A stretch of 23,136 bases of DNA from a virus, in IMG/VR virus record IMGVR_UViG_3300029259_000322, positions 1-23,136 of that record; one strand, given 5' to 3'. This document shows, piece by piece, positions 2 to 16,771 of this stretch (position 1 is the first letter of the stretch; each line of letters begins with the position of its first letter). The position numbers were made by a program, and so were the translations under genes. A model generated the notes under the pieces. That model did no database searches. It had not been told where the DNA came from and saw nothing but the letters and a program-made list of their open reading frames with translations.

Positions 2-361
2 GTTCATCATGCAACCGGCGCTAAGCCTAGAAGGTGGTATCCAAAAGCATTTCAGGCTAATCCCAATGCTCGTTGGTGGTTTGGTATCGACGGTCTTCCG
101 GGGGAAAGCCACAAGTATAGAATAAACCAAGATGGTCAAAAGCTATTTGATATTATGGTTGAATCAATTCCATACTTGAAGCAACTGCCCGTATGGCAAT
201 ATATTGTATTTAAGTATAATCAAGACCATATTGAAGAAGCTCATAATATGGCAAAGGAAGCAGGAGTACAATTTATGGTAGTAAACTCTTCACGTTGGTT
301 AAAAGGCGAGGATGAATACCGGCCCACCAAAGAACATAGTCTGAGTTTACACGATGGATAA
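2..361 (+). CDS. Radical SAM enzyme core, C-terminal part (5' end outside window)
   Basis: The reading frame is open from the first full codon at position 2, so the gene begins upstream of the window; the internal ATG at 155 is not the likely start. The visible 119 residues correspond to the second half of a radical SAM barrel. They align by eye with the complete homologue at 1528-2223: WWFGIDGLPGE matches VTFAVDGVNQ, YIVFKYNQDHIEEA matches TIVFKHNEDYLDEI, and NSSRW matches TPSDRW. The CX3CX2C cluster motif would lie upstream and cannot be seen. The frame stops just after this conserved segment, and the cysteine-rich SPASM-like part follows as a separate gene with an 8-base overlap. Radical SAM chemistry is inferred from the homologue; the substrate is unknown. 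Confidence 0.75.
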   Translation, partial: VHHATGAKPRRWYPKAFQANPNARWWFGIDGLPGESHKYRINQDGQKLFDIMVESIPYLKQLPVWQYIVFKYNQDHIEEAHNMAKEAGVQFMVVNSSRWLKGEDEYRPTKEHSLSLHDG

Positions 362-701
362 TGAACGTACCGAGTTAGATCCAAAATGTTTAACTGGCGG
401 GCAGGAAGCCTTTGCTATTACAAATCGTGGTGAACTTATACCTTGTTGCTGGTTAGATAATCAAGTAAATAGAAGAGATCCTGATTACATAAAATTACTA
501 ATAGCAAGTCATATTCAGGATTACGACTCGATTGAAGAAATTCTATTTACAGACGAATGGCTCGAGTTTCAGGATAATCTAAAGAAAGGCATAGGGTTTA
601 CCATTTGTCATCTCGTGTGCAAAAAACGAGATTCTCCGCAGCACAAAAGAGAAACGTTTTACGGCGAAGACAACGACAAAAAATACGTAAAAGAAACGTG
701 A
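354..701 (+). CDS. Stand-alone SPASM-like Fe-S domain, partner of the upstream radical SAM core
   Basis: This 115-residue protein has the cysteine layout of a SPASM/twitch auxiliary-cluster domain: Cys12, a GELIPCCW segment with Cys31-Cys32, a DEWLEF helix, and a closing CX3C (Cys85, Cys89). In most known enzymes this domain is fused to the C-terminus of the radical SAM core and holds auxiliary 4Fe-4S clusters near the substrate. Here it begins at an ATG that overlaps the end of the core gene by 8 bases in a different frame. The same arrangement occurs at 2220-2600. No strong Shine-Dalgarno is visible, so translation probably depends on coupling to the upstream gene. A frameshifted single gene cannot be excluded for this copy alone. 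The tail beyond residue 90 is lysine-rich and probably flexible. Confidence 0.7.
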   Translation: MDNERTELDPKCLTGGQEAFAITNRGELIPCCWLDNQVNRRDPDYIKLLIASHIQDYDSIEEILFTDEWLEFQDNLKKGIGFTICHLVCKKRDSPQHKRETFYGEDNDKKYVKET

Positions 702-712
702 TAGATATCAAT

Positions 713-1528
713 ATGGTAGATTCGATACACAATATAAGAGAACAAGGTTACCTTGGGGTTGATTTCTATCTGTCTAAGTCTTGCAATAAGTCTTGCCACT
801 ATTGCACCGCCTGGACTTTAGAGATGCGCAACCTTCACGTGGACATGGAATTTTTAACTAATACTCTCGACGGGTTCGACGGTCATAGGGTGAATGTAAA
901 TTTACTTGGCGGTGAGCCGGGTTTAATTAAAAACCTTAAAGAGGTTATTGCCAAGGTCAAAACGTACGACAATATAAAACTATCGGTGCTTTCTAATTCT
1001 CTTATAAGAAAATTTCACCCGTATGTTCTAGAAGATCCTGAGATCTATTATGTTGAGCATTTAGTATTAGATTTCCACGAAGACAAAATAGAGAAGTTAG
1101 GCAACTTTCCCTTTTTCCCAGAGAATAATTTAAACAACTACAATCTAGTTATTAAGACGCCCGGTTATTATGAGCATCTGGCTAAACACGACATGTCCGA
1201 GCTAGATCATAAAAACACTTTACTCAAAGAGTTTAATTCCCGTTCTCCTAACTGGGCCAAAAATTCACAAGCACCCGAGTTCGACAGACGTATGTGTGCT
1301 GCCTTTCCTAAAGTGCCGGTGGTTGACTTTGAGATAAAAAAGATAAGACATTGCAGTAAGAAAGTAATTAATGGTTCTAAGGTGTTTGACGTTACTCGCG
1401 AAAACATACAAAAGATGATGAACTTTGAATTGTTTGGATTTGAAAAGTATTGTATAGGCTGTACTGAGCACATCGAAAAAAGACCCCCAGAACAAATATT
1501 AAGAATAATGGAAGCGGGAGTAGTGTAA
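713..1528 (+). CDS. One-piece radical SAM protein
   Basis: A radical SAM enzyme of about 271 residues, not split. Near the N-terminus it carries CNKSCHYC (CX3CX2C; Cys24, Cys28, Cys31 from the ATG at 713), which binds the SAM-ligating 4Fe-4S cluster, followed by LLGGEPG, the GGE motif that binds the SAM amino group. Cysteines near the C-terminus (RRMC, RHCSKK, KYCIGC) suggest an auxiliary cluster region. The open frame extends back to 605, but that part is a basic stretch reading through the preceding gene and is unlikely to be translated. A GTG at 698, which overlaps the upstream TGA by four bases, is a reasonable alternative start. The stop overlaps the next ATG as TAATG. Reaction and substrate are unknown. 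Confidence 0.8.
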   Translation: MVDSIHNIREQGYLGVDFYLSKSCNKSCHYCTAWTLEMRNLHVDMEFLTNTLDGFDGHRVNVNLLGGEPGLIKNLKEVIAKVKTYDNIKLSVLSNSLIRKFHPYVLEDPEIYYVEHLVLDFHEDKIEKLGNFPFFPENNLNNYNLVIKTPGYYEHLAKHDMSELDHKNTLLKEFNSRSPNWAKNSQAPEFDRRMCAAFPKVPVVDFEIKKIRHCSKKVINGSKVFDVTRENIQKMMNFELFGFEKYCIGCTEHIEKRPPEQILRIMEAGVV

Positions 1529-2223
1529 TGTATAATCATTACGGCCTTAATGTTTTCTTAGATATATCTACCTATTGCAATGCTGCTTGTCCTCAGTGTC
1601 ATAGGACTAATCCTAATGGTTTAGATAAAGCAGACTGGTTGCCTTTGGTAGCTTGGGACCTTGAAACTTTTAAGAAGGCTTATGATTTAGAGAACACTAA
1701 AATTCTATATCGCCATTTCTCGTTTTGTGGAACATGGGGAGATCCTGTAATGAATAGAGATCTTATAGGCATGGTAGAGTATATTATTAAATTCAGCAAT
1801 GCAGACGTTGGTATTGATACTAACGGAAGTATAAGAAATGAAGAGTGGTGGTGGGACCTAGGAAGAATTGGCGGTCGAAGGGTAAGAGTAACTTTCGCGG
1901 TTGATGGCGTAAACCAGAAAATGCATTCTCATTACAGACAAAAGACCGACCTTAAAAAAGTATTAAATAATATGGAATCACTATCAGGGACTATGTCTTA
2001 CCCTATAGTGCGAACTATAGTTTTTAAACACAATGAAGATTATCTTGATGAAATAGAAAAGTTGTGCAAAGATCACGGTGCATCGCATATAGAATTTACC
2101 CCTTCTGATCGTTGGGAGCGGGGATCGGTTTTTGAGTTTACGGACGGTAATGGTAACGCGCAACAACTAGAGCAAAGTAGAATACTTAAAGGTAGTCAAA
2201 AGCAAATCAGGAGGGAAGCATGA
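1528..2223 (+). CDS. Radical SAM enzyme core (split enzyme, core half)
   Basis: A 231-residue radical SAM core. CNAACPQC (Cys17, Cys21, Cys24) is the CX3CX2C cluster motif, preceded by FLDISTYC as the first strand. CGTWGDPVMNRD takes the place of the GGE/GEP motif, and DTNGS is a typical later strand. It is homologous to the partial gene at 2-361. The ATG overlaps the upstream stop (TAATG) and has a GGAG Shine-Dalgarno at 1517-1520. The protein ends after the conserved S-D-R-W segment and a polar tail, exactly where a SPASM-containing enzyme would continue; that continuation is the next gene, whose ATG overlaps this stop as ATGA. The two products probably form a complex. The substrate is unknown. 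Confidence 0.85.
   Translation: MYNHYGLNVFLDISTYCNAACPQCHRTNPNGLDKADWLPLVAWDLETFKKAYDLENTKILYRHFSFCGTWGDPVMNRDLIGMVEYIIKFSNADVGIDTNGSIRNEEWWWDLGRIGGRRVRVTFAVDGVNQKMHSHYRQKTDLKKVLNNMESLSGTMSYPIVRTIVFKHNEDYLDEIEKLCKDHGASHIEFTPSDRWERGSVFEFTDGNGNAQQLEQSRILKGSQKQIRREA
2209..2214 (+). promoter_or_regulatory. Strong Shine-Dalgarno for the split SPASM gene
   Basis: AGGAGG lies five bases before the ATG at 2220, inside the 3' end of the radical SAM core gene. It supports real internal translation initiation of the SPASM-like protein, and so a true two-gene arrangement rather than a sequencing frameshift. No slippery heptamer is visible next to it. Confidence 0.85.
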
Positions 2224-2600
2224 AAATTGTATGTAAGTGGTTAAAAGATAACCGAGTACTTGTTAACCCAGATGGTCAAGTATTACCATGTTGCTATCTT
2301 GCAAATCCCATTTGGGGTATAAAACAGAATTTTAAAGGCGGTGAAGCCGGGCGCCATAGCGATGGTGGCAAAGGGGTAGATTCAGACGGTAATCCATTAT
2401 CTGTTGTTTATAACCAGTTTGGTAAAGGTGGTAAATCAGCTATGGAAGAGTATAATAACGACAAAGAAAAGTATAATATCCATAATAACGATATGAAAGA
2501 TATTCTGAAAGGAAAATGGTTTACTAAAACATTACCGGATTCGTGGAAAGACGAAACTAAAACTATAAGCCAATGTAGGAAGTGGTGCGGAGAAGAATAA
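2220..2600 (+). CDS. Stand-alone SPASM-like Fe-S domain, partner of the radical SAM core at 1528
   Basis: This 126-residue protein begins with a cysteine (Cys5 in KIVCKW), then a beta-hairpin with NPDGQVLPCCYL (Cys24, Cys25), an ILKGKWF helix and a terminal CX3C (Cys119, Cys123). That is the order of a SPASM domain, including the usual G-x-V-x-P-C signature. It is preceded by a near-perfect Shine-Dalgarno and overlaps the core gene by four bases (ATGA), so it is translated as a separate chain. Between the two cysteine groups it carries a glycine-rich insert (about residues 38-75) that the paralogue at 354-701 lacks. It presumably supplies the auxiliary cluster and substrate contacts for the core subunit; that role is inference. 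Confidence 0.75.
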   Translation: MKIVCKWLKDNRVLVNPDGQVLPCCYLANPIWGIKQNFKGGEAGRHSDGGKGVDSDGNPLSVVYNQFGKGGKSAMEEYNNDKEKYNIHNNDMKDILKGKWFTKTLPDSWKDETKTISQCRKWCGEE

Positions 2601-2603
2601 AAA

Positions 2604-2638
2604 AGGGGGTTTACATTCCGATCGTGACATGTTATAAT
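2604..2638 (+). promoter_or_regulatory. Sigma70 / T4-early-type promoter upstream of the SGNH gene
   Basis: A -35 box TTTACA (2610-2615), embedded in AGGGGGTTTACA, is followed by a 17-base spacer and a perfect -10 box TATAAT (2633-2638). The predicted start site is near 2645, about 20 bases before the ATG at 2665. A GTTTAC-type -35 is, from memory, typical of T4 early promoters. An element with the same -35 surroundings and the same spacing lies upstream of gp25 on the other strand (20880-20914). The 64-base gap 2601-2664 holds this promoter and an AGGA ribosome site, but no terminator for the radical SAM genes. Confidence 0.8.
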
Positions 2639-2664
2639 AATTGCATCAATAGGAAACATGCATA

Positions 2665-3441
2665 ATGAAAAAGATTTTATTAGTAGGCGGTGATAGTTTT
2701 TCGGATCAAAGCTGTTCTAGCTACAAAGGAAAAGATATTCTAACATGGCCTGTATTATTGGCGGAAAAACTAAATATGAATTTAGTATGCGTGGCATCGG
2801 CGGGAGGAGGCAATGAACAAATATACTCTTCTATACAAGACTGGGTGTGTACTCACATAGATCATCCTCATCCGAAAGATATAGGCATGGTAATAGCTGC
2901 TTGGTCTAAAGCAGAAAGAATGGATTTTGAAATAAAAAATCATTTCGCGCCCTTTGACCGACTACAGAGTGGGGACCGTAGAACTTGGGAGAATACTCGT
3001 GTGTCGCCGAGAGGAGGGATTTTTCACTTTATGAGAAAAAGCGTAAGAAACTTTCACAACTTACAAATGCTATGCGAAAGTAACAATATACCATATAAGC
3101 AGTTCCAAGCGCTATCGTTGTTTAGGGACTATATAAATGAATACCACCGGCCAAATGCCGTAGGAGTAAGATTAAAATGTATAGATTATATTAGTGAATC
3201 CGCACAGTTTCGCCATATCAATAAAGATAATTTTATAGGTTGGCCGCTCTATGATGAAGCAGGGGGTTTTACGGTCGGAGATCTTAGATCGAAAAAATAT
3301 CGGGAAGCCATATATAACCTTGCTAATATTAGTCCTTATCATGGTGCTAAGGACGTCGACTGTGTAATTGGACCTAACGACACGCATCCAAATAAAATAG
3401 GCCATGAATTAATTGCGGAGTTCATCTATGAAAATCTTTAG
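2665..3441 (+). CDS. SGNH/GDSL-like hydrolase
   Basis: A 258-residue protein with the framework of the SGNH hydrolase family, which removes or transfers acyl groups through a serine nucleophile. The N-terminal strand runs into GGDSFS (block I; Ser11 as candidate nucleophile). ASAGGGNEQ (residues 44-52) fits the Gly/Asn oxyanion block, and the C-terminal NDTHPNKIGH (238-247) fits the catalytic acid-His block with His241. The usual acid position three residues before the His is Asn238, with Asp239 next to it, so the triad may be shifted or altered. No signal peptide is seen, so it probably acts in the cytoplasm. It is the first gene behind the promoter at 2604-2638 and overlaps the carbamoyltransferase by 14 bases. 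The substrate is unknown; acetylated glycan is one possibility. Confidence 0.65.
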   Translation: MKKILLVGGDSFSDQSCSSYKGKDILTWPVLLAEKLNMNLVCVASAGGGNEQIYSSIQDWVCTHIDHPHPKDIGMVIAAWSKAERMDFEIKNHFAPFDRLQSGDRRTWENTRVSPRGGIFHFMRKSVRNFHNLQMLCESNNIPYKQFQALSLFRDYINEYHRPNAVGVRLKCIDYISESAQFRHINKDNFIGWPLYDEAGGFTVGDLRSKKYREAIYNLANISPYHGAKDVDCVIGPNDTHPNKIGHELIAEFIYENL

Positions 3442-4936
3442 TGCAGCATTTGGTCCACACGACCATAACACATATGATGGAGTATTTCATAACCAAAGGG
3501 AAAGATATACTCGGCGTAAGCATAATATTCCATGGCATTATGATGCATACCCTCATCATAGCACAGTAGATAAAATGAACAAGGAAGACAAAAGTTCAGG
3601 TCAAGAATTTTATAAAGACTATTGGAAACCAGAAAATCATGAAATCTTTGCTTATACAACCACAGTCGGTGGTGTTGCGCAAATGCCTGAACTTGAATCA
3701 AAGAAAGAGTTTATGGACTGGCATCCTACTAACCTTTGGGATTATAAGAAAAGGGGAAACCTTTATTACATAGACCATCATCAATCGCATGCAGCTTATG
3801 CGTACTTAACTTCCGGCTTTGCTGAATCAGACATATTAGCAATTGACGGGCGGGGGTACAAATACAATACTGTATTTTTTGATAGAGATGGTTACCCCAA
3901 TATTCTAGATTTAGGCATTGGTGAAATATGGGATTGGTTTTCAAAAGAGCTTGACTTTGGTACTCTTGGTGCAAGTAAGGTAATGGGCTTAGTAGGTTAT
4001 AACAAGCCGGAACACATTCTATATGATCTCTATACGCTATTAGATCGGTTTTGGGATACAAAGGATAAAAGAGTAAGTAATATATGGAATGAATTAAGAT
4101 ATATTGCCAATAAAGAAAATCCTAGACATGTAGCATACACTTTGCAAAAGGCTACCGAGGAAAGAATTTTGGATGCCGTAAGGGAATTAAAAACTTCTGA
4201 CAATCTTTGTGTAACGGGCGGAGTTGCATACAATGGTTATGTAAACGAGTTACTTACGGAAGAATGGGATAACGTATTTGTTCCGCCCGCGCCGGGAGAC
4301 GAAGGCCAAGCCCTTGGAACGTATATGCATGCCGATTATATGCTAAACAAGAACACACATATTCCGTCTGTGTATGCAGGTAAAGAGTATGACTTTGTCG
4401 GCAAAGAGAAGGTAGATATAAAAGAAGTTGCTCAAGCAATTGCTGATGGTAAGATCATTGGTTGGTTCCAAGGTAAATCTGAGAGTGGGCATAGAGCACT
4501 GGGCAATAGAAGTATACTTGCCGATCCTAGAAATCCTAAGATAAAAAGTATTATTAACCACACGATTAAGATGCGGGAAGACTTTAGACCTTTTGCACCA
4601 AGTGTGCTCGAAGAACATTACCAAGAATACTTTGATACTGAAACACCGAGTCCTTATATGTCTCGCATTGTAAAAGTAAAGTCTGACAAAGTTCCTGGCA
4701 TTACCCACGTCGATGGAACAGCCCGCATCCAAACCGTTAACAGAGAACAGAATGAAAAGTTTTATGATCTGATTAACGAGTTCTATAAAATCACCGGCAT
4801 TCCCATGCTACTCAATACTAGCTTTAATTGTCAAGAGCCTATTGTCGAGACACCTACGGAAGCCATAGATACTTTTGAAAGAACTAAAATGGATATGTTG
4901 GTAATTAATGATTATATCATGCGTAAAATGGGGTAA
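3428..4936 (+). CDS. NodU/CmcH/TobZ-family carbamoyltransferase
   Basis: A complete 502-residue member of the family that transfers a carbamoyl group from carbamoyl phosphate, via carbamoyl-adenylate, to a hydroxyl. The Kae1-like domain holds HHQSHAAYA (His117, His118, His121), VTGGVAYNG (262-270) and PGDEGQALG around Asp291. The C-terminal YrdC-like part holds GHRALGNRSILADPR (from Gly354), KMREDFRPFAP and LLNTSFN. The proline of the usual GPRALG signature is His355. ATG 3428 is chosen because GGAG (3417-3420) sits seven bases upstream and the protein starts at the family's usual MKIF-like strand; the frame also has a TTG at 3413. Known family substrates are sugars and antibiotics, and phage members have been linked to carbamoylated hydroxymethyl bases. 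The acceptor here is unknown. Confidence 0.93.
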   Translation: MKIFSAAFGPHDHNTYDGVFHNQRERYTRRKHNIPWHYDAYPHHSTVDKMNKEDKSSGQEFYKDYWKPENHEIFAYTTTVGGVAQMPELESKKEFMDWHPTNLWDYKKRGNLYYIDHHQSHAAYAYLTSGFAESDILAIDGRGYKYNTVFFDRDGYPNILDLGIGEIWDWFSKELDFGTLGASKVMGLVGYNKPEHILYDLYTLLDRFWDTKDKRVSNIWNELRYIANKENPRHVAYTLQKATEERILDAVRELKTSDNLCVTGGVAYNGYVNELLTEEWDNVFVPPAPGDEGQALGTYMHADYMLNKNTHIPSVYAGKEYDFVGKEKVDIKEVAQAIADGKIIGWFQGKSESGHRALGNRSILADPRNPKIKSIINHTIKMREDFRPFAPSVLEEHYQEYFDTETPSPYMSRIVKVKSDKVPGITHVDGTARIQTVNREQNEKFYDLINEFYKITGIPMLLNTSFNCQEPIVETPTEAIDTFERTKMDMLVINDYIMRKMG

Positions 4937-6227
4937 CAAGTTTAGCCACGAACATGTGAACAGATTATATACGATGGTGGCTAAGAACATAAGCATCCCA
5001 TTTACATTTGTTTGCCATACGGAAAATCCCGAGAACATACACAAAGACATACAAATAAAACCTTTAGACACTTCTTTAGGTCTAGAAAAGTGGTGGTGGA
5101 AGCTAACACTATTTAATCAAGAACCCGGAGAACACATATTCTTCGATCTTGACGTAGTTATACAAAACAATCTACAACCTATTATTGATAGTATAAGACC
5201 TAACAAACTTTGTATGATAAAAGCCCTTTGGAAAACCTACGAACTAAAGGGCAATGACATGGATCATAACTCTTCTGTTATGGCATGGGGTGGTGATCTA
5301 TCTCATATATGGGATAAGTTTGAAGATGACGTTGAACATTACACTTGGGCATATAATGGCATAGACGGCTTTTTATATCACGAGATAAAAGATATAAACA
5401 CCTTTCCAGAAAAGCTAATCTACTCCAGACTGTTTGGTATTGATAAGGATAACTGTTATTCATACGGTGACTTTAAGGGATACTATGGTATGCCCGATTA
5501 TACGGTATGTATTTTTAATGGTTGGAGACGTGATAAGAAAGATGGCAAGTATCTGTTAGATGATTATGGCTATAAAGGTATGGAACATTACTGGGATGCT
5601 AAAACAAACTTTACAGGTATTGATACAAGAGTTTGGGAAGCTCTGTGGGAGTGTGAGTATTCAGGCGGTGACACTAAACATTTTTTAGATAGTATGTCGC
5701 CTAATCAAGTCGCATCTAAGGAATGGTTAATAGAAAATGTTAATAAACATCATCAACTTAGTATAAAGAAAGTTCAGTTGTGGGGTGGATGGTTCGCTCA
5801 CCCTATATCATCTATGCTTGTAAATGATTTATCCTCAGTCAATAGAATAACTAATCTCGACATAGATGAAAACGCTCTACATTATTGCAGGCTGTTAAAT
5901 TCTCATCTTAAATATCTTCATGTATTAGACACTCATTGTGCAGACGTATTAAATAAACATAAAACAGATATTGATACCGACTTAGTTATTAATACATCAT
6001 CTGAACATATGCCACCCCTATATACTATACTCGCAAAAAAAGAATACAAAAACACCTGTCTTTTTGCTGTACAAAGTAATAATATGTTTCACGTACCGGA
6101 TCATATCAACTGTGTAAACAGTGAAGACGAGTTAGTTGAAAATACTGGCTTAAAAGAAATATTATATAAAGGATCGCTAGATATGCCAAATGGATATAAA
6201 AGATTTATGGTAATTGGATATGCGTAG
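4908..6227 (+). CDS. Glycosyltransferase - SAM methyltransferase fusion
   Basis: A two-domain protein of 439 residues. Residues 1-210 form a GT-A type glycosyltransferase: it starts ISCVKWGNKF, has the KWWWKL segment and the metal/nucleotide-sugar motif FFDLDVV (Asp80, Asp82), and NSSVMAW fits the family's acceptor-side motif. Residues from about 245 look like a class I SAM-dependent methyltransferase: VQLWGGWF (289-296) as the glycine loop, LDID (317-320) as the acidic end of strand 2, then NTSSEHM (362-368), AVQSNNMF and HINC (399-402), a pattern I recall from phage methyltransferases. The ATG overlaps the carbamoyltransferase end by 29 bases, indicating coupling. Sugar donor, acceptor and methylated position are unknown. 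No membrane segment is seen. Confidence 0.75.
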   Translation: MIISCVKWGNKFSHEHVNRLYTMVAKNISIPFTFVCHTENPENIHKDIQIKPLDTSLGLEKWWWKLTLFNQEPGEHIFFDLDVVIQNNLQPIIDSIRPNKLCMIKALWKTYELKGNDMDHNSSVMAWGGDLSHIWDKFEDDVEHYTWAYNGIDGFLYHEIKDINTFPEKLIYSRLFGIDKDNCYSYGDFKGYYGMPDYTVCIFNGWRRDKKDGKYLLDDYGYKGMEHYWDAKTNFTGIDTRVWEALWECEYSGGDTKHFLDSMSPNQVASKEWLIENVNKHHQLSIKKVQLWGGWFAHPISSMLVNDLSSVNRITNLDIDENALHYCRLLNSHLKYLHVLDTHCADVLNKHKTDIDTDLVINTSSEHMPPLYTILAKKEYKNTCLFAVQSNNMFHVPDHINCVNSEDELVENTGLKEILYKGSLDMPNGYKRFMVIGYA

Positions 6228-7074
6228 AGTTATATACAGTTTCTACATAGACATTCCTAAAGAACATCTGGTATCACACCATGATTCTAAAGATAAGTTT
6301 GCTGATAACTATGAATGGTTGTTAGAATCTCAAAAAGCCTACGCTGATAAAATTGGTGTTGATTATAGACACTATGTTAAAGATCCGCTTTTTGATAACT
6401 ACGTTAAATGGTTTCAAGATAACTATCCCGACATTTCATATTACAACATTGTTAATTTCTGGAAGATAAAATTACTGTACGTTTTGTCTGAATGGTATGA
6501 CGAGGTGCTATACCTGGATATAGATGTTATACCAGTAACCGATTTAAACTTCTTTGAAGAGATGGATTTGTCAAAAGGGATTGCAATTATGACTGGCACT
6601 GCCAAAAGTCAGCAACCTACCGAGTGGAGAAATACTCTTAGATATAATCATGATGTTAGGTCTCCTATGGCTAAGATGTGGCACAGTAGTTGTATGCTGG
6701 GAGAGGCAGATATGTTGGTACTTAAACCGGATGTATTTAATACGGGAATAGTCGGTGCTACAAAGGGGCATATTCAGAAATTGGGCTACTTAGACGACTT
6801 CGAAGACACCCTAGATCTTATGTCTAATATGATAACAGATACGGATTTATACCCTAAGTCTATAAGTTATATGTTCGGATATGATAACGAAACCGTATGG
6901 GGATACAAGACTTATCTTAATAAAGTCGACTACCAAGTATTAGGAGAAGATTGGCACTACTTTATGGATAAGTGGAGTTATATAACAAAAGAAGCAAAGT
7001 TTGTTCATTGCGTAAGTAAAGACTTTAACTATGTAAGGCAATGGTGTGAAAAGAATAATATTCAGCCTGTATAG
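6220..7074 (+). CDS. DxD glycosyltransferase (GT8-like), copy 1
   Basis: A 284-residue GT-A fold glycosyltransferase. It begins MRRVIYSFYIDIP, then has a helix AYADKIGVDY, the strand and metal-binding motif LYLDIDVIP (Asp100, Asp102), and VFNTGIVGA, which fits the NxG segment of GT8-like enzymes. A late HCVSKDF segment could supply the C-terminal histidine of the active site. ATG 6220 overlaps the upstream stop by eight bases; a TTG at 6214 is in frame but less likely. It is paralogous to the next gene, sharing the N-terminal strand, the A-x-x-IGxDY helix and the DxD context, which points to tandem duplication. Donor and acceptor sugars are unknown. Confidence 0.8.
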   Translation: MRRVIYSFYIDIPKEHLVSHHDSKDKFADNYEWLLESQKAYADKIGVDYRHYVKDPLFDNYVKWFQDNYPDISYYNIVNFWKIKLLYVLSEWYDEVLYLDIDVIPVTDLNFFEEMDLSKGIAIMTGTAKSQQPTEWRNTLRYNHDVRSPMAKMWHSSCMLGEADMLVLKPDVFNTGIVGATKGHIQKLGYLDDFEDTLDLMSNMITDTDLYPKSISYMFGYDNETVWGYKTYLNKVDYQVLGEDWHYFMDKWSYITKEAKFVHCVSKDFNYVRQWCEKNNIQPV

Positions 7075-7822
7075 AAACGATCTTGCTGACCACGATTCTG
7101 TTCCTTCGTTTAAGAGAGAACAGTTTATTAAGTATGCGGATCAACTAGAGCAGAAGCAAAGAGAGTATGCTAACCTTATAGGTGCAGACTATCTGCTTAT
7201 TGAGCCTACTTCGACCGACTATATCGAGGTTCAATTTCAAAAGTTAAACGCGTTTGAAACATTAGCTAAAGATTATGACGAGGTAATGTATATGGACTTC
7301 GATGTCATACCTCTTACGACAGTCAACATCTTTGAACGATTTAATCTAAACACGGTGTGTTCTTTTAGTATACAAATACCGGAAATGACCAAAGAAGACT
7401 TTCGTTACCGGCGCGAGGTCGGACACGAATGGCACTGCATGGATATGTATACTAAGACATGTAATAAGAAAGCTATGTTAGCGCTGGATGGTATATCTGG
7501 CACTCATAGTTGCATTAATACAGGAGTCATTGTAATGAATTCTGATTGCATACGCAACCTAAACTTTGCGGAAAGATACACAGAAGGGGTAGAGATATTC
7601 AAGGAGTCACTTAGTGATAATCTCTATCCTGAAGAAATGACTAGGAACTGGGTATTGAACAACGAGGTTATGTTATCTTATATAATAGAAAAGCATGCCA
7701 TTCCCTTTACTAATATAGGAATGGCATGGAATTTTATACTAGATCACAACCATCAGACTATGACTCCTGCAGCACACTTATTACATTTTGTTCATAAAAA
7801 GTTTGAACTATTTTTTGGATGA
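7046..7822 (+). CDS. DxD glycosyltransferase (GT8-like), copy 2
   Basis: A 258-residue paralogue of the previous gene: MKRIIFSLYRN, REYANLIGADY, MYMDFDVIP (Asp84, Asp86) and INTGVIVMN are in the same order. The start is GTG at 7046, with AAGG (7035-7038) seven bases upstream, and overlaps the previous gene by 29 bases. The ending HLLHFVHKKFELFFG carries histidines typical of the C-terminal lid of GT8-like enzymes. It is the last gene of the + strand cassette and its final 15 bases overlap the last - strand gene tail to tail. An 11-base inverted repeat lies within its 3' part. Two adjacent copies suggest successive additions to one glycan, but this is inference. Confidence 0.8.
   Translation: MKRIIFSLYRNDLADHDSVPSFKREQFIKYADQLEQKQREYANLIGADYLLIEPTSTDYIEVQFQKLNAFETLAKDYDEVMYMDFDVIPLTTVNIFERFNLNTVCSFSIQIPEMTKEDFRYRREVGHEWHCMDMYTKTCNKKAMLALDGISGTHSCINTGVIVMNSDCIRNLNFAERYTEGVEIFKESLSDNLYPEEMTRNWVLNNEVMLSYIIEKHAIPFTNIGMAWNFILDHNHQTMTPAAHLLHFVHKKFELFFG
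7694..7728. repeat. 11-bp perfect inverted repeat inside the last glycosyltransferase gene
   Basis: CATGCCATTCC (7694-7704) and GGAATGGCATG (7718-7728) are exact reverse complements separated by 13 bases. The repeat encodes H-A-I-P and G-M-A-W in the protein. A short AATTTTAT run follows on the + strand. It could form an RNA hairpin or a protein site near the convergent junction, or be a coincidence of coding sequence. Confidence 0.5.
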
Positions 7823-8536
7823 AGCAGCAGCTTTTGCTGCTTTAAATGCGGGTGGCTGACGATCGTCGTCTTCCATAGCAGGAACTAACGTAGCAGGTTC
7901 CATCTCGGATGGAACAACTACTTCTACCTTGGCGTCCGGTAATGCTTTAGCTTTTACTTCAAGATCTTCGGGCTCGGGCGAAGCAATCATGGTAGCATAT
8001 TTAATAACCGAGATAAGATCTTTTGCCTTCCGAAGTTTAGCTTTGAGAGGACGATTGGTGCTAGACTTAATTTCTTCCGAATCAAAAAGCTTTAGCTTTA
8101 GTAAGAAGATTTGTTCTTTCTTTTCATCTGCGTCAAACGGTTCCAATAGTGTATCTGCAAGTGTTTCATATGTAAATTCGTCTAGCTGCTTTACTTCAAC
8201 GGGTTCGACCCATTCAGGCTCATGGGCTTCAGGCTCAACCCATTCAGGTTCAGGTGCCTTAATAATTCCTAATTCTAGACCGTGGCGCAAGATATTCTCT
8301 TTGAACTTTTCGTTCTCTAGGCGAAACTTATTAAACGTATTTTCGTGAATATCGTCAAGAGGAAGTTTTTTAACCAACCATTCGTAATCGGCATCACCCG
8401 TTTTTGCTTCAATGTTATAAGGAATAAGAACGGCATGATCCTTAGTAGACTCTTCGGATACCAGGATCACTTGAATTTCAGTGCGCTCATTGTTAGTAAA
8501 ATACGCAGTGTTAATCTCTAGATTGTGTATGGTCAT
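7808..8536 (-). CDS. Acidic hypothetical protein with EPEWVEP repeat
   Basis: A 242-residue protein I do not recognise. The N-terminal 90 residues look folded, with a beta-rich start (NTAYFTNNERTEIQVILVSEES) and a charged helix. Then EPEWVEP occurs twice (96-102 and 106-112) as a proline-acidic linker. A helical middle (EKKEQIFLLKLKLFDS, LKAKLRKAKDL) and a low-complexity Ala/Lys end (AAKAAASSKK) follow. It is the last gene of the virion operon, starts three bases after the previous stop with AGGA upstream, and ends by overlapping the + strand cassette. A minor virion or assembly role is plausible from position only. Confidence 0.75.
   Translation of the reverse strand: MTIHNLEINTAYFTNNERTEIQVILVSEESTKDHAVLIPYNIEAKTGDADYEWLVKKLPLDDIHENTFNKFRLENEKFKENILRHGLELGIIKAPEPEWVEPEAHEPEWVEPVEVKQLDEFTYETLADTLLEPFDADEKKEQIFLLKLKLFDSEEIKSSTNRPLKAKLRKAKDLISVIKYATMIASPEPEDLEVKAKALPDAKVEVVVPSEMEPATLVPAMEDDDRQPPAFKAAKAAASSKK
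7822..7842. terminator. Possible hairpin at the convergent gene junction
   Basis: AAGCAGCA (7822-7829) and TGCTGCTT (7835-7842) form an 8-bp stem with a 5-base loop right after the stop codon of the + strand cassette. On the + strand only TTT follows, so it is at best a weak intrinsic terminator. The same bases encode the Ala/Lys-rich end of the - strand gene, which could explain the symmetry by itself. Confidence 0.3.
8201..8251 (-). repeat. Short internal repeat encoding EPEWVEP twice
   Basis: Two copies of a 21-base unit encoding EPEWVEP, separated by three codons, sit in the middle of the 242-residue hypothetical gene. They mark an acidic, proline-rich linker. Confidence 0.7.
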
Positions 8537-8539
8537 TTT

Positions 8540-9469
8540 TTATTCCTGTGTGATTTTAAGTCTAAAGGTTGCTGCAGTAACTACAGAGCCGTTTGGAAAT
8601 TCTTGTGCCCGGTAATCGTTGGCGCCAACGAATCGAGTTTGATAGTTACCAGCTCCGTTAAGTATTGTATTAACCATACCCGAACCTAAGTTCACACCTG
8701 AGCCGTTAATATTATATCTAATTCGTTTGCCCGCAATTTCCGCTGCGTTATGGCGTATGGCTTGCAATAAGATTGCATCTATCTGCGTATTAGTATATTC
8801 CTGAAGATCAAAGTCGGTGTCTGTAATATACAGCATTTTTTCTATATCGGGAGCAGCAATATTATTTGCTTTTAGAAGGAAATAGTTCTGGATGGTTTCA
8901 GGTTGATCAAGATCCTCGGCAATTCCACCGGCGGTATAATCGCTTAGATCCGCTCTGGTGTCAGCAAACACAAAGTCTGTGCTTACCGCTGTAAATCCGC
9001 TTAAGGTTGTTGAAGTGTGGATAGTGAACGTGCCTGGTTGTCCATTCGCACTTGTAATGGTATCAATAGCGTCTAGAACAAATGTATCATATAAATCCTG
9101 TTTCGACATAGCCTTGATCGTTTTGAAGCCGTTAAAAAAGACGGGGAATGCTCTATTATCGGTATTTGTAGGGTCACTGGTATTGTCGGTCACCTGTGAT
9201 ATATGTGCCCGATTAAGAGTTACCGTACTTGGTTCAGCCGTTTCGCCTTCTAGGTCAAAGTTAGTTGCATCGGTGCTCATGGCACCGGCTTGTTTACGAG
9301 TATCGACTATAGCTCCTAAAGTACCACTAGAAGATACTCGGGTTAAATTGGCAGAAGGATTGGTTCCATATAAATATCGGCAACGGTTTTTAATAGCTAG
9401 GATCTGAGCCGTTGACATTTGAACGAGGTTAGCATCTCCATCCAGTATAAGCGGTATTCTTACAGCCAT
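8540..9469 (-). CDS. Probable virion structural protein
   Basis: A 309-residue protein with the composition of a phage structural protein: many Thr, Ser, Asn and Gly, few Cys, no enzyme motif. The N-terminal RIPLILDGDANLVQMS and the central KTIKAMSKQDLYDTFV segment look folded. The C-terminus ends in beta-rich sequence (YQTRFVGANDYRAQEF, AATFRLKITQE). I recall similar proteins downstream of the large DUF4815 gene in T4-like marine phages, but cannot name it. The start lies just after the upstream stop, with a GGGGAA ribosome site overlapping that stop. Likely a tail, baseplate or fibre-associated part expressed late. Confidence 0.7.
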   Translation of the reverse strand: MAVRIPLILDGDANLVQMSTAQILAIKNRCRYLYGTNPSANLTRVSSSGTLGAIVDTRKQAGAMSTDATNFDLEGETAEPSTVTLNRAHISQVTDNTSDPTNTDNRAFPVFFNGFKTIKAMSKQDLYDTFVLDAIDTITSANGQPGTFTIHTSTTLSGFTAVSTDFVFADTRADLSDYTAGGIAEDLDQPETIQNYFLLKANNIAAPDIEKMLYITDTDFDLQEYTNTQIDAILLQAIRHNAAEIAGKRIRYNINGSGVNLGSGMVNTILNGAGNYQTRFVGANDYRAQEFPNGSVVTAATFRLKITQE

Positions 9470-9471
9470 GA

Positions 9472-9948
9472 TTAATTCCCCGCCCCGTGTATTGTTTTAA
9501 GGGTCGCATCTGCAGAGTTTTTAATAAGCAAGGTAGACACAGATGAAAGCTTGGTGCTGTCTATAGCATCGTTTGCGATGTCCGCTCGTGCAATGCCGCC
9601 AGTCTTTAAGGATACCGCACCAGATGCAACGGTAAAGCCGGCACTATCAAAGGACGCAATACCTTTTACAGTAACTGTTGCATCGGTTGGGGTTACTGCG
9701 GTTGCTGTCAATACACCGGTAGCTTCAACGTAAGTTAAACCGGTGCCTGCGCTAATTAAACTTCTTATGTCAGAATCACTTGGTCCAGCATAAGCAAGAA
9801 CGCCAGTATTAATGTTATAACCTAAAGAACCTAATCCTCCGCCGTCTACTACGGAAATCGCTGCAGCACCATTTCGGAAATCTGAATCGAGTGTATTATA
9901 TGCCTGTCGCCATAAATCCAGCGAGTTTGTCGTTAGAATTTGTACCAT
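9472..9948 (-). CDS. Small fibre-like structural protein
   Basis: A 158-residue protein with fibre-like low complexity: repeated short strands rich in Ala, Thr, Gly and Ser (TATAVTPTDATVTVKG, DSAGFTVASGAVSLKT) and the common phage-fibre phrase ANDAIDSTKLSSV. The N-terminal DLWRQAYNTLDSDFRNG is more helical and could be the attachment or trimerisation part. ATG overlaps the upstream stop as TAATG, with AGGGA inside the upstream gene. A short tail fibre or a connector is plausible. There is no clear T4 counterpart. Confidence 0.7.
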   Translation of the reverse strand: MVQILTTNSLDLWRQAYNTLDSDFRNGAAAISVVDGGGLGSLGYNINTGVLAYAGPSDSDIRSLISAGTGLTYVEATGVLTATAVTPTDATVTVKGIASFDSAGFTVASGAVSLKTGGIARADIANDAIDSTKLSSVSTLLIKNSADATLKTIHGAGN

Positions 9949-10148
9949 TATAGTTTCCCTATTAACTCTTTCAGTAAGGCCTTAACTTCGCCAAGATCAT
10001 TTTCAAGAGTTTCAATGCGTTCTTTGTCTGCCTGCCGTGCTTTTTTTCGTGCGCGAGCTTCAGCGATCTCGCCCTTATTACTATTTATGATCGCACCAGA
10101 CCCAAAGTTTTTCTTAAGGTCTGGTTTATTTTTAATTGGCGAATGCAT
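9948..10148 (-). CDS. Small coiled-coil protein
   Basis: A 66-residue protein. After a basic, disordered start, residues about 28-66 form a strongly charged helix with heptad-like hydrophobics (RIETLENDLGEVKALLKELI), likely a coiled coil. It is bounded on both sides by TAATG stop/start overlaps, which supports a real coupled gene despite the weak ribosome site at its start. A late-promoter-like CATAAATA lies inside its 5' part. It may be a small virion linker or chaperone; the function is unknown. Confidence 0.65.
   Translation of the reverse strand: MHSPIKNKPDLKKNFGSGAIINSNKGEIAEARARKKARQADKERIETLENDLGEVKALLKELIGKL
10082..10089 (-). promoter_or_regulatory. T4-late-type promoter box, variant CATAAATA
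   Basis: The - strand reads TCATAAATAG, one base from the T4 late box TATAAATA. It lies inside the 66-residue gene, about 130 bases upstream of the small fibre-like gene. The same ten bases occur upstream of gp25 (20923-20930). Confidence 0.45.
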
Positions 10149-13100
10149 TATACTGACAGTGCGATCGCTCTGAAGTCTCTAAATACTGGCACTTTTGAGC
10201 TATTAGTCGATTCCATAACAATCTTAATTTGGAATGTTACGAATGGAGCTAATGTTCCAGCTGAGGTTCCGATTGTATAACGATATTCTCTAAAGACGTT
10301 AATGTTTTCATCTGATTGAACTGGGGAGTCTAAGGTAGCTTTCGTCCAAGGTGTTTCCAGAATATCTACGTCATCATTAATTGCCTTAAAGTATATATCA
10401 AAGTTAGTAACGGAAGGTCTGTTAGCTGCTAAGATCACTTTAATACCAACAGCGTCTTCTTCCAGGGTAACTGGCTTAGTTACGTACTTGGCAAGGGATG
10501 TACCACCGATTGCATCCGTTTCTGCAATGTATGACAAAGGAACGTTATATCCAGCAGTAGCAGTAGATTCTTGCTTATCGATCAGGTTACTGATTGCAGT
10601 AAGTGAGCAACGTTCTGCGGAGATAATTGGTGAGCTATAGCTACTAGTTGTAGTAAACGTTGCTTTAACTTCTGCAGATGTTACAGGATAAATACCGCCA
10701 GCTGTTTCTAGTAGTTCGCTCATCATAACCTTAGGTGCAGTAAAGTTATATGCTTCATATTCTTTCAGAGAGTGAGAATACGTAGACTCTTTTTGATAGA
10801 AGGTTTCTGAACCTGCAAGAGACTTACTAGAAGTAAAGCTACCTTCAAGTGTTACGTTTGTACCAGGAGGTGCAGTAATTTCTATTGAAGGATATACTGT
10901 ATCCATTACTACGTTATCCGGAACGTATATACCAAGACCACCGGAGCGAAGAGAACTTGTTGCAGCCGTGTCTGCTTCAAATGTATAGCCTGACCCGTCG
11001 ATAGCAGTAATTGTTCTATTACCTGTTAAGGCGTTAACGCTCATTGGGTATGCTGCAGCACTGTCAATACCCTGGAAAGAAACTATATCATTAATTTGTA
11101 GACCGTGGTTAGGATGAATAACTCTAACTGTAGCATCACCGCTATCGAATAAGAGTGGATTTGGAACAAGGAGCTTAGGCTCGATGAAATCGTTCTTAAA
11201 GATTGCTGTGCCGCTTGTTTCGAATTCTGCTCTATTTAGGTCGAACTTAAGATCGATCCACTGCGCTGGCTCCCATGTAGCACCATTCTGAGATCTAAAG
11301 AATGATCCAACGTCTGGTTGCTTAGTAATTTTCTTATCATTTGATCCAAGAACAAAGTCACCTACGCGTGCAGCAAAAGCGGTATATTCAATGGATGGAG
11401 ATTTAACTACGAGTGCGTGATAGCGATTTGATGCGCCCTCGAGATAGACGGGGTTATCAAACTCAAAGTATGTTACTGCCGATGCATCATTCGATATACT
11501 TACTTGATCTGGAGACAGAGTAGCAATTGCTCCTTTGTAATAGTGATCTGCTCTTGGATAACCATTTTCAACAGAAGTCAAGAATACTTGAACCGGAATA
11601 CCAGCCGTATCTTTTTGATTAAAGTATATGCCAACCTTAGTAATAAACACGCCGGTAGATCTTTCAACTAAGAACGTCTGAGCGATCGGATCACGATTCT
11701 GGGCACGTGGTTGGCGCGGAGCAGCCGGCGGTGGTGGCGGAGGCGGTGGTGGACGACGGAATCTTGTATCCGTTACACCTTCTGCGAGGTAGTCCGTTGA
11801 GCAATAAGAGATAGCGTTCGCTTCATTGCCAGTTGGAACGTCTACTATTTTAAGCGTACGCGTGCCCGATAGGAACCACTGGGTCGCGTTATTTGGAATA
11901 AAGAATGTGCCTTCGATCAGTCCATTTGCATCTGAAATAAGTGCACGTTGGCTATCAGTTGGAGAAGCGTTACCGAACACTGGGTTCCAGTTCGCGTTAA
12001 AGTTTCTACGGAAGATTCTATTAGCAAATCCTGCGCTGGTCCAACCGGTTCTTCTGTTACCCCATTGCCAATTTGTCGGGAAAGTCGCGCCGATACGAGA
12101 GTTCTGAGCAACGTGATCCGAAACATCTACGCCGTCGAAGTATGGCCAATGACGTGTATTAGCTAAAAGACCACTGGCACGGAAACGAATCTCTCTCGCG
12201 CGAATGCGCGGTACAAACAAACGAGTAGCGAATCTACCAAATGTAGTGCCGTTGTTAGTTTGTGCTTCAGAGTTAGTAAGACGCTCTTCGCCATTGGAGC
12301 GTTCAATACCTGCCCAACCCCATTGGAACTCTCTCCAGTTAGGGCTAATGGTATCGAATACGCCAGGAAGAATTTGGTTAACTGCTGGCGGTAAAGATTG
12401 CAAAGCCTCTTCAAGCGTACCCGCACTTGTGAAGTTATTTGCTTCTGTTAAGTTAATTCTATTTCTTAAGAAGTCACGACGTCCACCAAACTCAGGATTG
12501 GATCCAAGAGCATTTAGGATAGAAGCAGTATCTGCTTGGCCTAGAGTATTTTGTAGGAAGGTTTCGATTGAAGCTTCATCACGTCCGTCTGAACGAATAG
12601 TAATAGTGCTACGTGATTCATCGCTTGAAGGAGAAAGAACTAAAATACCTTCGTGCTTCATAATAGTAAACGGATTCACTTTTACTGTGCGTGATGCAAG
12701 TGGCTGACTGAACCAAACTACGTCTGTATAGTCTAGAAGTACCTCATCGCCTTTAAGAACAGTATTACTAATATCTGCGTCTGAAGAATCAAACCAAAGG
12801 GATACGTTCTTTTCACGGTATGACGGGCGAAGAATACCTTCGGATGCATCGATCGATGCGCGATACTCTAGGTCGTCAAAGTTTGCTGCACGGTGATCTT
12901 TAAAGTCGTCTGTCAAGAAACCTGACTTGGTACGGTTAAGGCCTCCAGCGTCAAGAACTTCAAGTGTTTCTGCTTTAATGTCCAACAGAGATAGTGTTGC
13001 CATCTCTTCGACTTTGTTAATCTTCCGATGAAGTTTACCGATATCTCTCATTGTATAACGACGATTTTCAAACGTTGCTGATGTAAGATCAGTTTCATCT

Positions 13101-15424: not shown

Positions 15425-15433
15425 ATTTTATTC

Positions 15434-16771
15434 CTACAGTTGGATAATTACTTTGATGTCTTCTGTCTGGTTAGCGGATCGAATAACTGCTGCACGATTT
15501 TCCAAGTAAAGTAAATCACCTGAAAGATTATCGATGTCAGAACTATCTATAATAGAACTAAGGGTGCCGGTTGCGCCCGGAGCAGTAATAGTCCCAGAAA
15601 CGTCAGTAGTGAATGAACCGAAACCAGTTGCTAAGTTTTGGTGATACCATAGTTCGTCGGAGTCAATAAAATCGAGAACGGCTTTTGAACCTGATGTTCC
15701 GCCGGTAACAAGTTGGTCAACGGTAAAGCTTGCTGCTTGTGCTGGGTTAGCAAGAACTAGTTTATTTAGAGCTAAGCCGGTTGCGGCTTTATATAATCCT
15801 GAACCACCGGATGCTGGAACCGTTGGATTCTTAATTAGACCGATCTGACGGAAGTCGTTGCCTGTGATGAATTTGCCAACTTCGCCGCCGTCTGGCTTAG
15901 TGTTGAATACAATGGCTTTTGCTTTTAGATCAGTAATCGCATTAGAACCAATGCCAGTGGCTTGACCAACTACGATTCTTGCCGCTGCGCCAGAGCCACC
16001 ACCAGCAGTGATTGTAACCGTGCCAAGAGTATATCCTGATCCACGAGCTGCCATTGATATCTTTGTAACTGCTCCTGCATTAATAGTAGCCGTTGCGGTT
16101 GCACTAGTGCCATTTCCTGAGATAGTTACAGTTGGAATACTTGTATAACCTGTACCGCCGGCTGTAATTACAATGTTTAGAACCTGGCCTGGTGTGGCAG
16201 CCTGTTGCACCGCGAACTGTGCCGCGTCGCTTACGTCTGCGCTTGCCTCTGCTGCGGTTACGATTTGCACTGGCATAAAGCCGGAAGACGTAAACTTCAA
16301 AGATTTTGATACTGGAATAACGTACAAGAACAACCAAGTGTATCCATCTGCGGTTGTGAATACGGTTGTTGCAGTTCCTGTAGGCTTTACAGTAGAAGTT
16401 TTAGTTGATCCATCATTGTTTAAAGCACGCTGGATGCATACATAAACACCATTCTCGTCGGTAAGTACGAAGTAAGGTTGCACCGGATGGGATACACCTG
16501 CATCGTCATAAGCGGAATAAAGTGTGCCGGATGTCCAGTTATTACGGGGAACGACATATGAAACATCTTCTGCAGATTTAATAGATTGCAGACTGGTGCG
16601 GAAAGATTTCTCATCGCCAAGACTGTTAAGAGGTGCCGGTGATACGTCGGAATCATTCCATTGTTCAGACCTACCAATACCAATGTAATATGTATCTGCG
16701 GTCGTTCCAACGGATTCAATAATTCCATCCAGAAGTGTTCTTTTAATAGAGTCAGTAATAATAGCAGACAT
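15434..16771 (-). CDS. 8: Baseplate wedge protein gp8
   Basis: A 445-residue homologue of T4 gp8, a baseplate wedge subunit. Matching landmarks include IGRSEQW near residue 32 (T4 FGRSEPW), VVPRNNW near 73 (T4 VIPRRDW), DGYTWLFLYVIP at 142-153 (T4 DGYVWEYLFEIP), FRQIGLIKNP near 307 (T4 FRQISIITNP) and the C-terminus LYLENRAAVIRSANQTEDI (T4 IYMENRPPIIMAMDQTEEI). It is about 110 residues longer than T4 gp8 (334 as I recall). The extra length lies in a GGTGYT-type beta repeat (about 195-270) and a second insert (about 340-400). It has an AAGGAA ribosome site and starts 9 bases after the fibre-like gene. Confidence 0.92.
   Translation of the reverse strand: MSAIITDSIKRTLLDGIIESVGTTADTYYIGIGRSEQWNDSDVSPAPLNSLGDEKSFRTSLQSIKSAEDVSYVVPRNNWTSGTLYSAYDDAGVSHPVQPYFVLTDENGVYVCIQRALNNDGSTKTSTVKPTGTATTVFTTADGYTWLFLYVIPVSKSLKFTSSGFMPVQIVTAAEASADVSDAAQFAVQQAATPGQVLNIVITAGGTGYTSIPTVTISGNGTSATATATINAGAVTKISMAARGSGYTLGTVTITAGGGSGAAARIVVGQATGIGSNAITDLKAKAIVFNTKPDGGEVGKFITGNDFRQIGLIKNPTVPASGGSGLYKAATGLALNKLVLANPAQAASFTVDQLVTGGTSGSKAVLDFIDSDELWYHQNLATGFGSFTTDVSGTITAPGATGTLSSIIDSSDIDNLSGDLLYLENRAAVIRSANQTEDIKVIIQL

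Follow-up and report, generated by a model that had tools for sequence, protein, structure and literature searches.

A cassette of linked radical SAM, carbamoyltransferase and glycosyltransferase genes in the tail-fibre island of T4-like phages probably encodes one glycan pathway

Few bacteria and phages in the sea are as abundant as SAR11 and the viruses that infect it, and the myophages among these carry a large enzyme island beside their tail fibres. Zaragoza-Solas and colleagues named this region, between VrlC and a neck gene, the pelagimyophage host recognition cluster, and the available part of their paper describes many glycosyltransferases in it, radical S-adenosylmethionine (SAM) cassettes in two genomes, and a proposed modification of the host O-chain (PMC7029224). 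Two other described enzymes come close to what is found there: the radical SAM enzyme BtrN, which according to the part available of its source oxidises an aminocyclitol alcohol and has four Cys ligands on its auxiliary cluster (PMC9012708), and a phage-type carbamoyltransferase acting on 5-hydroxymethylcytosine (5hmC), the existence of which is reported in the accessible part of PMC8670742. Here we describe ten open reading frames (ORFs), linked enzyme genes on the plus strand at positions 2-7822 of the virus record IMGVR_UViG_3300029259_000322 (positions 1 to 23,136; this whole stretch of 23,136 nucleotides is the window), which probably encode one pathway making a decorated surface glycan based on an amino-sugar or a cyclitol, on whichever of two acceptors it is placed. 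We found no description of this pathway in the open-access library searched.

That the genes form one pathway had been claimed in an initial annotation of the window, and the neighbourhoods of three separate seeds agree with it, since the genes occur together rather than scattered independently in relatives. The seeds were one of the radical SAM genes of the window (rSAM-c; best 80 of 312 confirmed stretches), a GT-B-type glycosyltransferase gene (best 80 of 279) and the carbamoyltransferase gene (CT; 64 loci); all loci are similarity matches to these few seeds on contigs that are fragments, and dereplication at 95% protein identity and enough flank were required before linkage was counted. 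A CT accompanies rSAM-c in 79 of the 80 viral loci of the first seed and is directly adjacent (less than 600 nt) in 58 of the 76 that extend 1.5 kb or more downstream, and in most of the non-adjacent loci SGNH or radical SAM genes lie between the two. Among the 23 dereplicated loci of this seed that have 5.5 kb to either side, CT and a methyltransferase are each found in 23, a DegT aminotransferase in 22, a radical SAM core gene in 19, GT-B and a nitroreductase-like gene in 18 each, SGNH in nine and GT8 in five. The GT-B seed gives 32 dereplicated loci with 7.5 kb downstream, which hold DegT (32), rSAM-c (28), CT (27) and methyltransferase (21), several of the misses falling at contig ends, and the dereplicated CT loci with room have rSAM-c (25/27), methyltransferase (30/31) and DegT (21/22). 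The constant core is therefore GT-B, DegT, rSAM-c, CT and methyltransferase; SGNH, GT8, nitroreductase-like and PP-loop/N-twitch genes are variable.

Gene fusions and correlated divergence further bear out the claim of a single pathway. One ORF joins an N-twitch radical SAM protein to CT (968-978 aa; L011 and L014-L018, for instance 8594-11500 of L015), another a PP-loop protein to the N-twitch radical SAM protein (743-762 aa; L046, L048, L049 and L054), and a third a glycosyltransferase to a methyltransferase (the window, L004, L005, L008 and L009). Pairwise divergences are correlated between CT and rSAM-c (r 0.865, 35 loci), rSAM-c and DegT (0.891, 25), CT and DegT (0.859, 25) and CT and GT-B (0.859, 17), with none of 2000 permutations as high for any of these four pairs; the correlation of CT with the methyltransferase is lower (0.535, 38 loci). 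For nine genes, compared between L005 and either the window or contig L003, which shares 99.8% identity with it across 5379 bases and reaches further upstream, dN/dS is 0.063-0.146. Fusions, correlated divergence and dN/dS support one selected pathway, and the island is to be seen as this rather than as loose auxiliary genes.

By its sequence the product of 3428-4936 is assigned unambiguously to the carbamoyltransferases (PF16861, 8.7e-69, 230.9 bits against a cut-off of 27; PF02543, 1.3e-19, 71.3 bits against 24), its nearest PDB relatives being GdmN, novobiocin carbamoyltransferase and TobZ. It carries an HHQSH motif in which His117 and His121 are invariant in 22 rows; HxxxH in carbamoyltransferases is a His-rich metal-site motif. 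The DegT aminotransferase, which lies upstream of the window genes in L003 (PF01041, 3.7e-80), is nearest among PDB sequences to glutamine-scyllo-inositol transaminase, QdtB, WbpE and perosamine synthetase. The GT-B protein was modelled (pLDDT 87), and GT-B/GT4 enzymes, PimA and BshA among them, fill the top VIA rows (Z 14.4-13.4; the best row has Z 14.4, rmsd 4.1 and 246 aligned). The N-twitch radical SAM protein of L003 matches NF033640 with 282 bits against a cut-off of 170. A PP-loop ATPase-like protein with CxxC motifs travels with it (L003 3666-4403; the two are fused at L046 5598-7829); that of L003 matches QueC at E 0.0061, below the cut-off, with weak NAD synthase and TilS matches besides.

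The rSAM-c gene, which reads from a GTG start codon at 698, encodes seven invariant cysteines in 22 rows: Cys31, Cys35 and Cys38 of the CX3CX2C SAM-cluster motif, and Cys202, Cys221, Cys254 and Cys257, four extra residues that may bind one auxiliary cluster. In the structural model (pLDDT 79.6, with the SAM-motif loop 31-40 below 50) the top VIA row is BtrN with 2-DOIA (Z 12.4, rmsd 3.6, 196 aligned), and sequence similarity to BtrN is seen at E 0.02 in the SAM-binding part only. With this BtrN-like Cys set and a fold that may be BtrN-like, rSAM-c may make a ketone that DegT aminates.

Annotations of the SGNH, methyltransferase and GT8 genes come from weak family matches. In the SGNH-like protein Ser11, Asp239 and His241 are invariant in 19 rows and five of the 19 members match the GDSL lipase Pfam family, while the window protein itself matches only DUF6071 (2.6e-4, below the cut-off) and the SGNH profile found nothing relevant in the PDB. 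The glycosyltransferase half of 4908-6227 matches PHROG 1962 (3.6e-10), its N-terminal part resembling a stand-alone family (family 14), and residues ~234-437 resemble a stand-alone methyltransferase family (family 2); the class-I methyltransferase half was assigned through its family alone, 11 of 21 relatives matching PF13649.

From the likenesses of DegT, CT, GT-B and rSAM-c we infer the order ketone, amine, carbamate, methyl, and with it every reaction, substrate and acceptor of the proposed pathway. In the first step rSAM-c (698-1528) would oxidise a sugar or cyclitol alcohol to a ketone, to which the DegT aminotransferase, outside the window, would add an amino group; CT would then add an O-carbamoyl group from carbamoyl phosphate and the methyltransferase a methyl group, and the unit would be transferred by the GT-B and GT8-type enzymes onto an acceptor glycan, a possible target of acylation or de-acylation by the SGNH protein. 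The split radical SAM/SPASM pairs described below would work on the same product as two-subunit enzymes. Taken alone, the exact assignment of the ketone step to rSAM-c is doubtful rather than likely, and we hold it so because of the warning, in the part available of a paper on SkfB, that sequence cannot predict function within this subfamily (PMC6231123). Among the four products offered by the initial annotation (hypermodified DNA bases, glycans on virion fibres, a remodelled host surface, a modified peptide) a glycan is favoured by DegT, GT-B, the GT8s, CT, SGNH and methyltransferase, whereas cytosine hypermodification is disfavoured and a peptide would have no visible precursor gene. Its remark that no nucleotide-sugar synthesis gene is present holds within the window, but DegT lies just upstream and a sugar short-chain dehydrogenase/reductase gene (PF01370) occurs in five of 12 related records.

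Several observations weigh against the surface-glycan pathway so drawn. The lead of BtrN in the fold comparison is effectively a tie, with BlsE (11.8), SuiB (11.7) and anSME within or near the limit of 1, and therefore the reaction of rSAM-c could be another. The VIA rows of the GT-B model also include T4 alpha-glucosyltransferase, which acts on DNA (Z 12.2-12.5), and UDP-sugar epimerases (Z 12-12.5), and the methyltransferase and SGNH assignments are weak. Pairing is broken in a few loci only: in L083, L231 and L050, where CT or rSAM-c was not seen, in L254, which is without rSAM-c, and in L065, which has a CT without the cassette. The divergence of CT also tracks that of tail genes (r 0.79-0.86), so the correlations above are partly common descent. 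Finally, a flippase, a polymerase and a ligase were not recognised, which weakens the lean towards the host envelope discussed below.

Though the initial annotation rightly counted three radical SAM enzymes, they are encoded by five ORFs, since two of the three are split into a core protein and a separate SPASM protein. The core 2-361 matches PF04055 at E 0.0016, below the cut-off, and its CxxxCxxC is invariant in 21 rows; in its partner 354-701 a CC and a CxxxC are invariant, and 13 of 22 proteins in this SPASM family have a PF13186 match. A homologue of this SPASM protein stands behind the core in the isolate Mosig with an identical 8-nt overlap, and the second SPASM gene of the window (2220-2600) overlaps the preceding core by ATGA behind a ribosome-binding-like sequence, CAGGAGGGAAGC. 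The two kinds of ORF adjoin in either arrangement, the core preceding in the window, L002, L010 and L036 and the SPASM ORF in L028, L038 and L046, with overlaps of 1-38 nt or, in L005-L007, a 2-nt gap; the exceptions are L041 and L042, where a SPASM ORF is followed by another gene. In L019 (10148-11272) and L043 core and SPASM are fused in a single ORF. Adjoining ORFs and fused forms suggest one enzyme in two chains, and thus the sequences point to a two-subunit radical SAM enzyme. A frameshift or sequencing error was considered and rejected, since the core and SPASM ORFs stay separate in a cultured isolate, Mosig, as well as in numerous contigs, whichever of the two comes first. None of the titles of the open-access papers found describes a SPASM protein that is stand-alone or separate; if this reading is true, the pairs would represent a two-subunit architecture for radical SAM-SPASM enzymes and a natural system in which to study the role of SPASM clusters.

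We also considered viperin, which was rejected: the match to NF038283 scores 34.3 bits against a cut-off of 180 and covers residues 23-103 only, and the PADLOC defence scan returned only a resemblance of the radical SAM core over the same stretch (pVip, 1.9e-11). In several relatives the neighbourhood of the cassette also holds long radical SAM proteins of two other families (25 and 45; L015 1-1701 and L057 60-1607), which by eye look cobalamin-binding.

The features of the window are collected in the table; the coordinates and gene kinds of the initial annotation proved correct by ORF, Pfam and PHROG checks. Neighbouring ORFs overlap by 1-29 nt at eight of the nine junctions, the sole gap being the 64 nt of 2601-2664, in which the promoter candidate sits. 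The number of such promoter sites is no evidence, because 31 are found in the region against 32.4 expected, and the late-promoter motif TATAAATA gives two matches against 2.95 expected.

Table. Positions of the cassette genes and flanking features in the window.
Feature	Positions	Strand	Evidence or remark
Radical SAM core protein, truncated at its 5' end by the window edge	2..361	+	whole (214 aa, CxxxCxxC) in L003 6290-6934
Stand-alone SPASM-type protein, putative partner of core 2-361	354..701	+	PF13186 E 0.0023 (below cut-off)
rSAM-c, radical SAM enzyme with four more invariant Cys and a possibly BtrN-like predicted fold	698..1528	+	PF04055 8.1e-6
Second radical SAM core protein	1528..2223	+	PF04055 9.1e-8; PHROG 21308 4.6e-22
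Second stand-alone SPASM protein, putative partner of core 1528-2223	2220..2600	+	PF13186 1.1e-5
Tentative sigma-70-like promoter candidate, TTTACA-17-TATAAT, extended -10	2610..2638	+	11/12 matches
SGNH/GDSL-like esterase or acyltransferase	2665..3441	+	invariant residues and family Pfam matches
O-carbamoyltransferase (CT), NodU/TobZ/GdmN superfamily	3428..4936	+	PF16861, PF02543
Glycosyltransferase (DLD motif) fused to class-I methyltransferase-like domain	4908..6227	+	PHROG 1962, family evidence
GT8-like glycosyltransferase (YLDID)	6220..7074	+	PF01501 4e-6, above cut-off
GT8-like glycosyltransferase (YMDFD)	7046..7822	+	PF01501 9.8e-5, below cut-off
Flanking virion operon (context, outside the pathway)	7808..16771	-	
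VrlC-like gene and baseplate wedge within the virion operon	10148..15424; 15434..16771	-	PHROG 358, PHROG 438

Within T4-like phage genomes the cassette is located in the tail-fibre island, also called the host recognition cluster. Upstream of the window genes L003 continues with N-twitch radical SAM, PP-loop protein, GT-B-like gene and DegT, in that order, and farther out with 2-oxoglutarate-oxygenase-like and radical SAM genes read by eye. L261, of the virus species to which L003 belongs, has a 1423-aa protein that matches no PHROG, followed by connector genes (PHROG 211 and 460), beyond which are terminase, tail sheath and major head protein. The cassette thus sits between the VrlC-like gene and the neck/connector genes, the two flanks of the island being read from two near-identical contigs. 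In some loci a protein of ~100 aa (families 4 and 23; e.g. L015 6185-6505) stands between DegT and rSAM-c; in Mosig (L002 19095-20354) it is a C-terminal extension of DegT.

For the acceptor we have a tentative preference for a host envelope polysaccharide over the virion fibres. The same pathway placing its sugar on tail fibres or other virion proteins, and so masking or tuning the adsorption proteins, is possible, and we consider it the less probable of the two. It would fit an island that carries tail-fibre genes and is bounded by VrlC/baseplate genes on one side and the 1423-aa protein and neck genes on the other, and phage glycosyltransferases can act in the cytoplasm, the site of virion assembly, while export machinery was not recognised. 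On the other hand GT8 is a common lipopolysaccharide-type family, and the published reading, in the part of that paper available, is host O-chain modification (PMC7029224). Orientation decides nothing between the two, because cassette and virion genes run in opposite directions in the window and Mosig, yet in the same direction in L019, L026, L029 and L032; an argument from strand for early expression was dropped for the same reason. A more specific version of the pathway, in which a BtrN-like radical SAM dehydrogenase and DegT would make an amino-cyclitol or rare amino-sugar in aminoglycoside style, to be elaborated by two-subunit radical SAM-SPASM enzymes, CT and methyltransferase before its exposure on either infected cell or virion, is in our view unlikely.

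The other readings survive less well. DegT, a twitch radical SAM enzyme, an O-carbamoyltransferase, a methyltransferase and glycosyltransferases are parts of aminoglycoside-type pathways too, and the cassette could in principle make a diffusible aminoglycoside-like small molecule during infection. We regard this as improbable: no cyclitol synthase, export or self-protection genes were recognised, and a fixed place next to tail-fibre genes is unexpected for a secreted compound.

DNA hypermodification, in which CT would carbamoylate 5hmC as the MetaGPA enzyme does and the glycosyltransferases and radical SAM enzymes would add further groups, appears more improbable still. The 5hmC carbamoyltransferase shares 27% identity with the window CT over 258 aligned positions, T4 alpha-glucosyltransferase is among the fold rows of GT-B as noted above, and one contig with the cassette, L047/G007, encodes a thymidylate synthase plus another ORF of that family, whose residue aligned by eye to N177 is Asp; its virus may therefore hydroxymethylate dCMP. 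The two genes of this contig were read at 1495-2415 of L147 (canonical) and 1318-2061 of L148. Against this stand the residues equivalent to TobZ W408, G421 and R423, which, in the part available of the source, separate modified from unmodified contigs (PMC8670742). With a mapping that allows for a presumed 6-residue tag on the PDB chain, they correspond to Trp346, Gly359 and Arg361 of the window CT, invariant in 22/22 rows, and WGR is present in 31/31 phage CT rows, as in TobZ, whereas the 5hmC enzyme has Ile/Cys/Thr (Phe at the first position in another alignment). Moreover, PF00303 is absent from nine of ten large records including Mosig (several of them incomplete; the search detected 9/14 controls), L047 with its two genes being the sole positive; the window virus, a 23-kb fragment, was outside this search. 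The linked DegT, SGNH and GT8 are also not the neighbours given in the accessible part of the MetaGPA paper (PMC8670742). Cytosine carbamoylation is disfavoured because CT keeps the TobZ-type residues and the thymidylate synthase-family gene is absent in 9/10. For 7-deazaguanine modification by tRNA-guanine transglycosylase/DpdA, PF01702 was found in 0/10 records (14/14 controls detected; a divergent DpdA might be missed). Least probable of all is a ribosomally synthesized, modified peptide, in which the radical SAM/SPASM proteins would act on a ribosomal peptide or a virion protein segment: such peptides are often matured by SPASM/twitch enzymes, as stated in the part available of PMC9012708, and the second core weakly resembles maturase models, far below cut-offs, but DegT, GT-B, GT8 and CT are sugar-type enzymes and the intergenic space, one 64-nt gap in the window and the read part of L003, leaves no room for an adjacent precursor gene between the ORFs.

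Among 50,697 phage records rSAM-c and GT-B each match one only, the isolate Mosig, whose cassette spans 60990-71305 of a genome stated to be 75.7% complete (PMC7892664); carbamoyltransferases as such occur in 143. GC content is 41% in the window against 30% in Mosig. Of 197 genomes from the family to which a SAR11 metagenome-assembled genome (MAG) belongs, 113 have a CT-family protein and five have rSAM-c, one as a strong match on a cassette contig and four as weak partial matches, therefore hosts hold carbamoyltransferases of another clade, not the pathway. By eye, one of six SAR11 host regions (L175) has its CT amid glycosyltransferase-like and sugar-metabolism genes, four have it in mixed gene surroundings and the sixth, L174, is fragmentary. 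A species-genome collection gave three rSAM-c loci (14 pattern matches), two of which (L149 and L151) have phage structural genes beside the cassette, so that phage contigs binned in bacterial MAGs are likely; L150 has cassette genes only. A host origin of the cassette was rejected, rSAM-c being nearly absent from host genomes and the MAG loci likely phage contamination. In SAR11 L172, L173 and L177 the CT (611 aa) adjoins a conserved small protein of ~127 aa, and in L173 and L177 it is also next to a 333-351-aa protein, which in L177 has FLGGST and is GDSL-like by eye.

Compared with the pelagimyophage host recognition cluster, the locus described here has the same site and the same mix of tail-fibre and GT8-rich glycosyltransferase genes; the available part of that paper contains neither 'carbamoyltransferase' nor 'aminotransferase' and describes no conserved pathway, split radical SAM/SPASM pair or gene order (PMC7029224). 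The cassette may be a little-explored kind of viral sugar chemistry, judging from the genes it holds, and if the surface-glycan pathway is true, viruses would make a rare sugar by a radical-based route that they themselves encode. The likeness to the butirosin enzymes BtrN and BtrS, which we take to be a paired aminocyclitol dehydrogenase and aminotransferase, lies in a twitch-type radical SAM enzyme with four extra invariant Cys and in a DegT near glutamine-scyllo-inositol transaminase; unlike in that system, a cyclitol synthase was not seen. The 5hmC carbamoyltransferase, as far as the accessible part of its source goes, is of the same superfamily and likewise in phage contigs, with different key residues (PMC8670742), and the linked thymidylate synthase/dCMP hydroxymethylase of that system was not found in 9/10 cassette records. 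The phage CT, of ~500 aa, shares with GdmN, NovN, TobZ and NodU both Pfam domains, a conserved C-terminal core and the equivalents of TobZ W408, G421 and R423. In a tree of SAR11 host, other phage and 5hmC sequences, to which the PDB enzymes did not belong, it forms its own clade (30 phage rows, support 100/100).

Another of the closest described systems is that of Pelagibacter phage Mosig EXVC030M (MT647606), which shares GT-B, core and SPASM, SGNH, DegT, rSAM-c, CT, methyltransferase and GT8 with the window and its upstream extension and also has further glycosyltransferase-like genes. It differs in having DegT inside the cassette, no second core/SPASM pair and an unfused methyltransferase. 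Its GT-B gene (Mosig_00083, L002 16563-17429) is labelled a molybdenum cofactor enzyme, probably a misannotation given that its family folds as GT-B in the model. A second enzyme cluster lies beside the tail fibres of Mosig on the virion strand (54701-60954; L002 9702-15955), annotated as two Asp/Arg hydroxylase-domain proteins, N-acetyltransferase, methylase, dioxygenase, peroxiredoxin, FMN reductase, aminotransferase and desaturase. Since Mosig and Pelagibacter ubique HTCC1062 are a cultured pair that carries the cassette, its product can be looked for directly.

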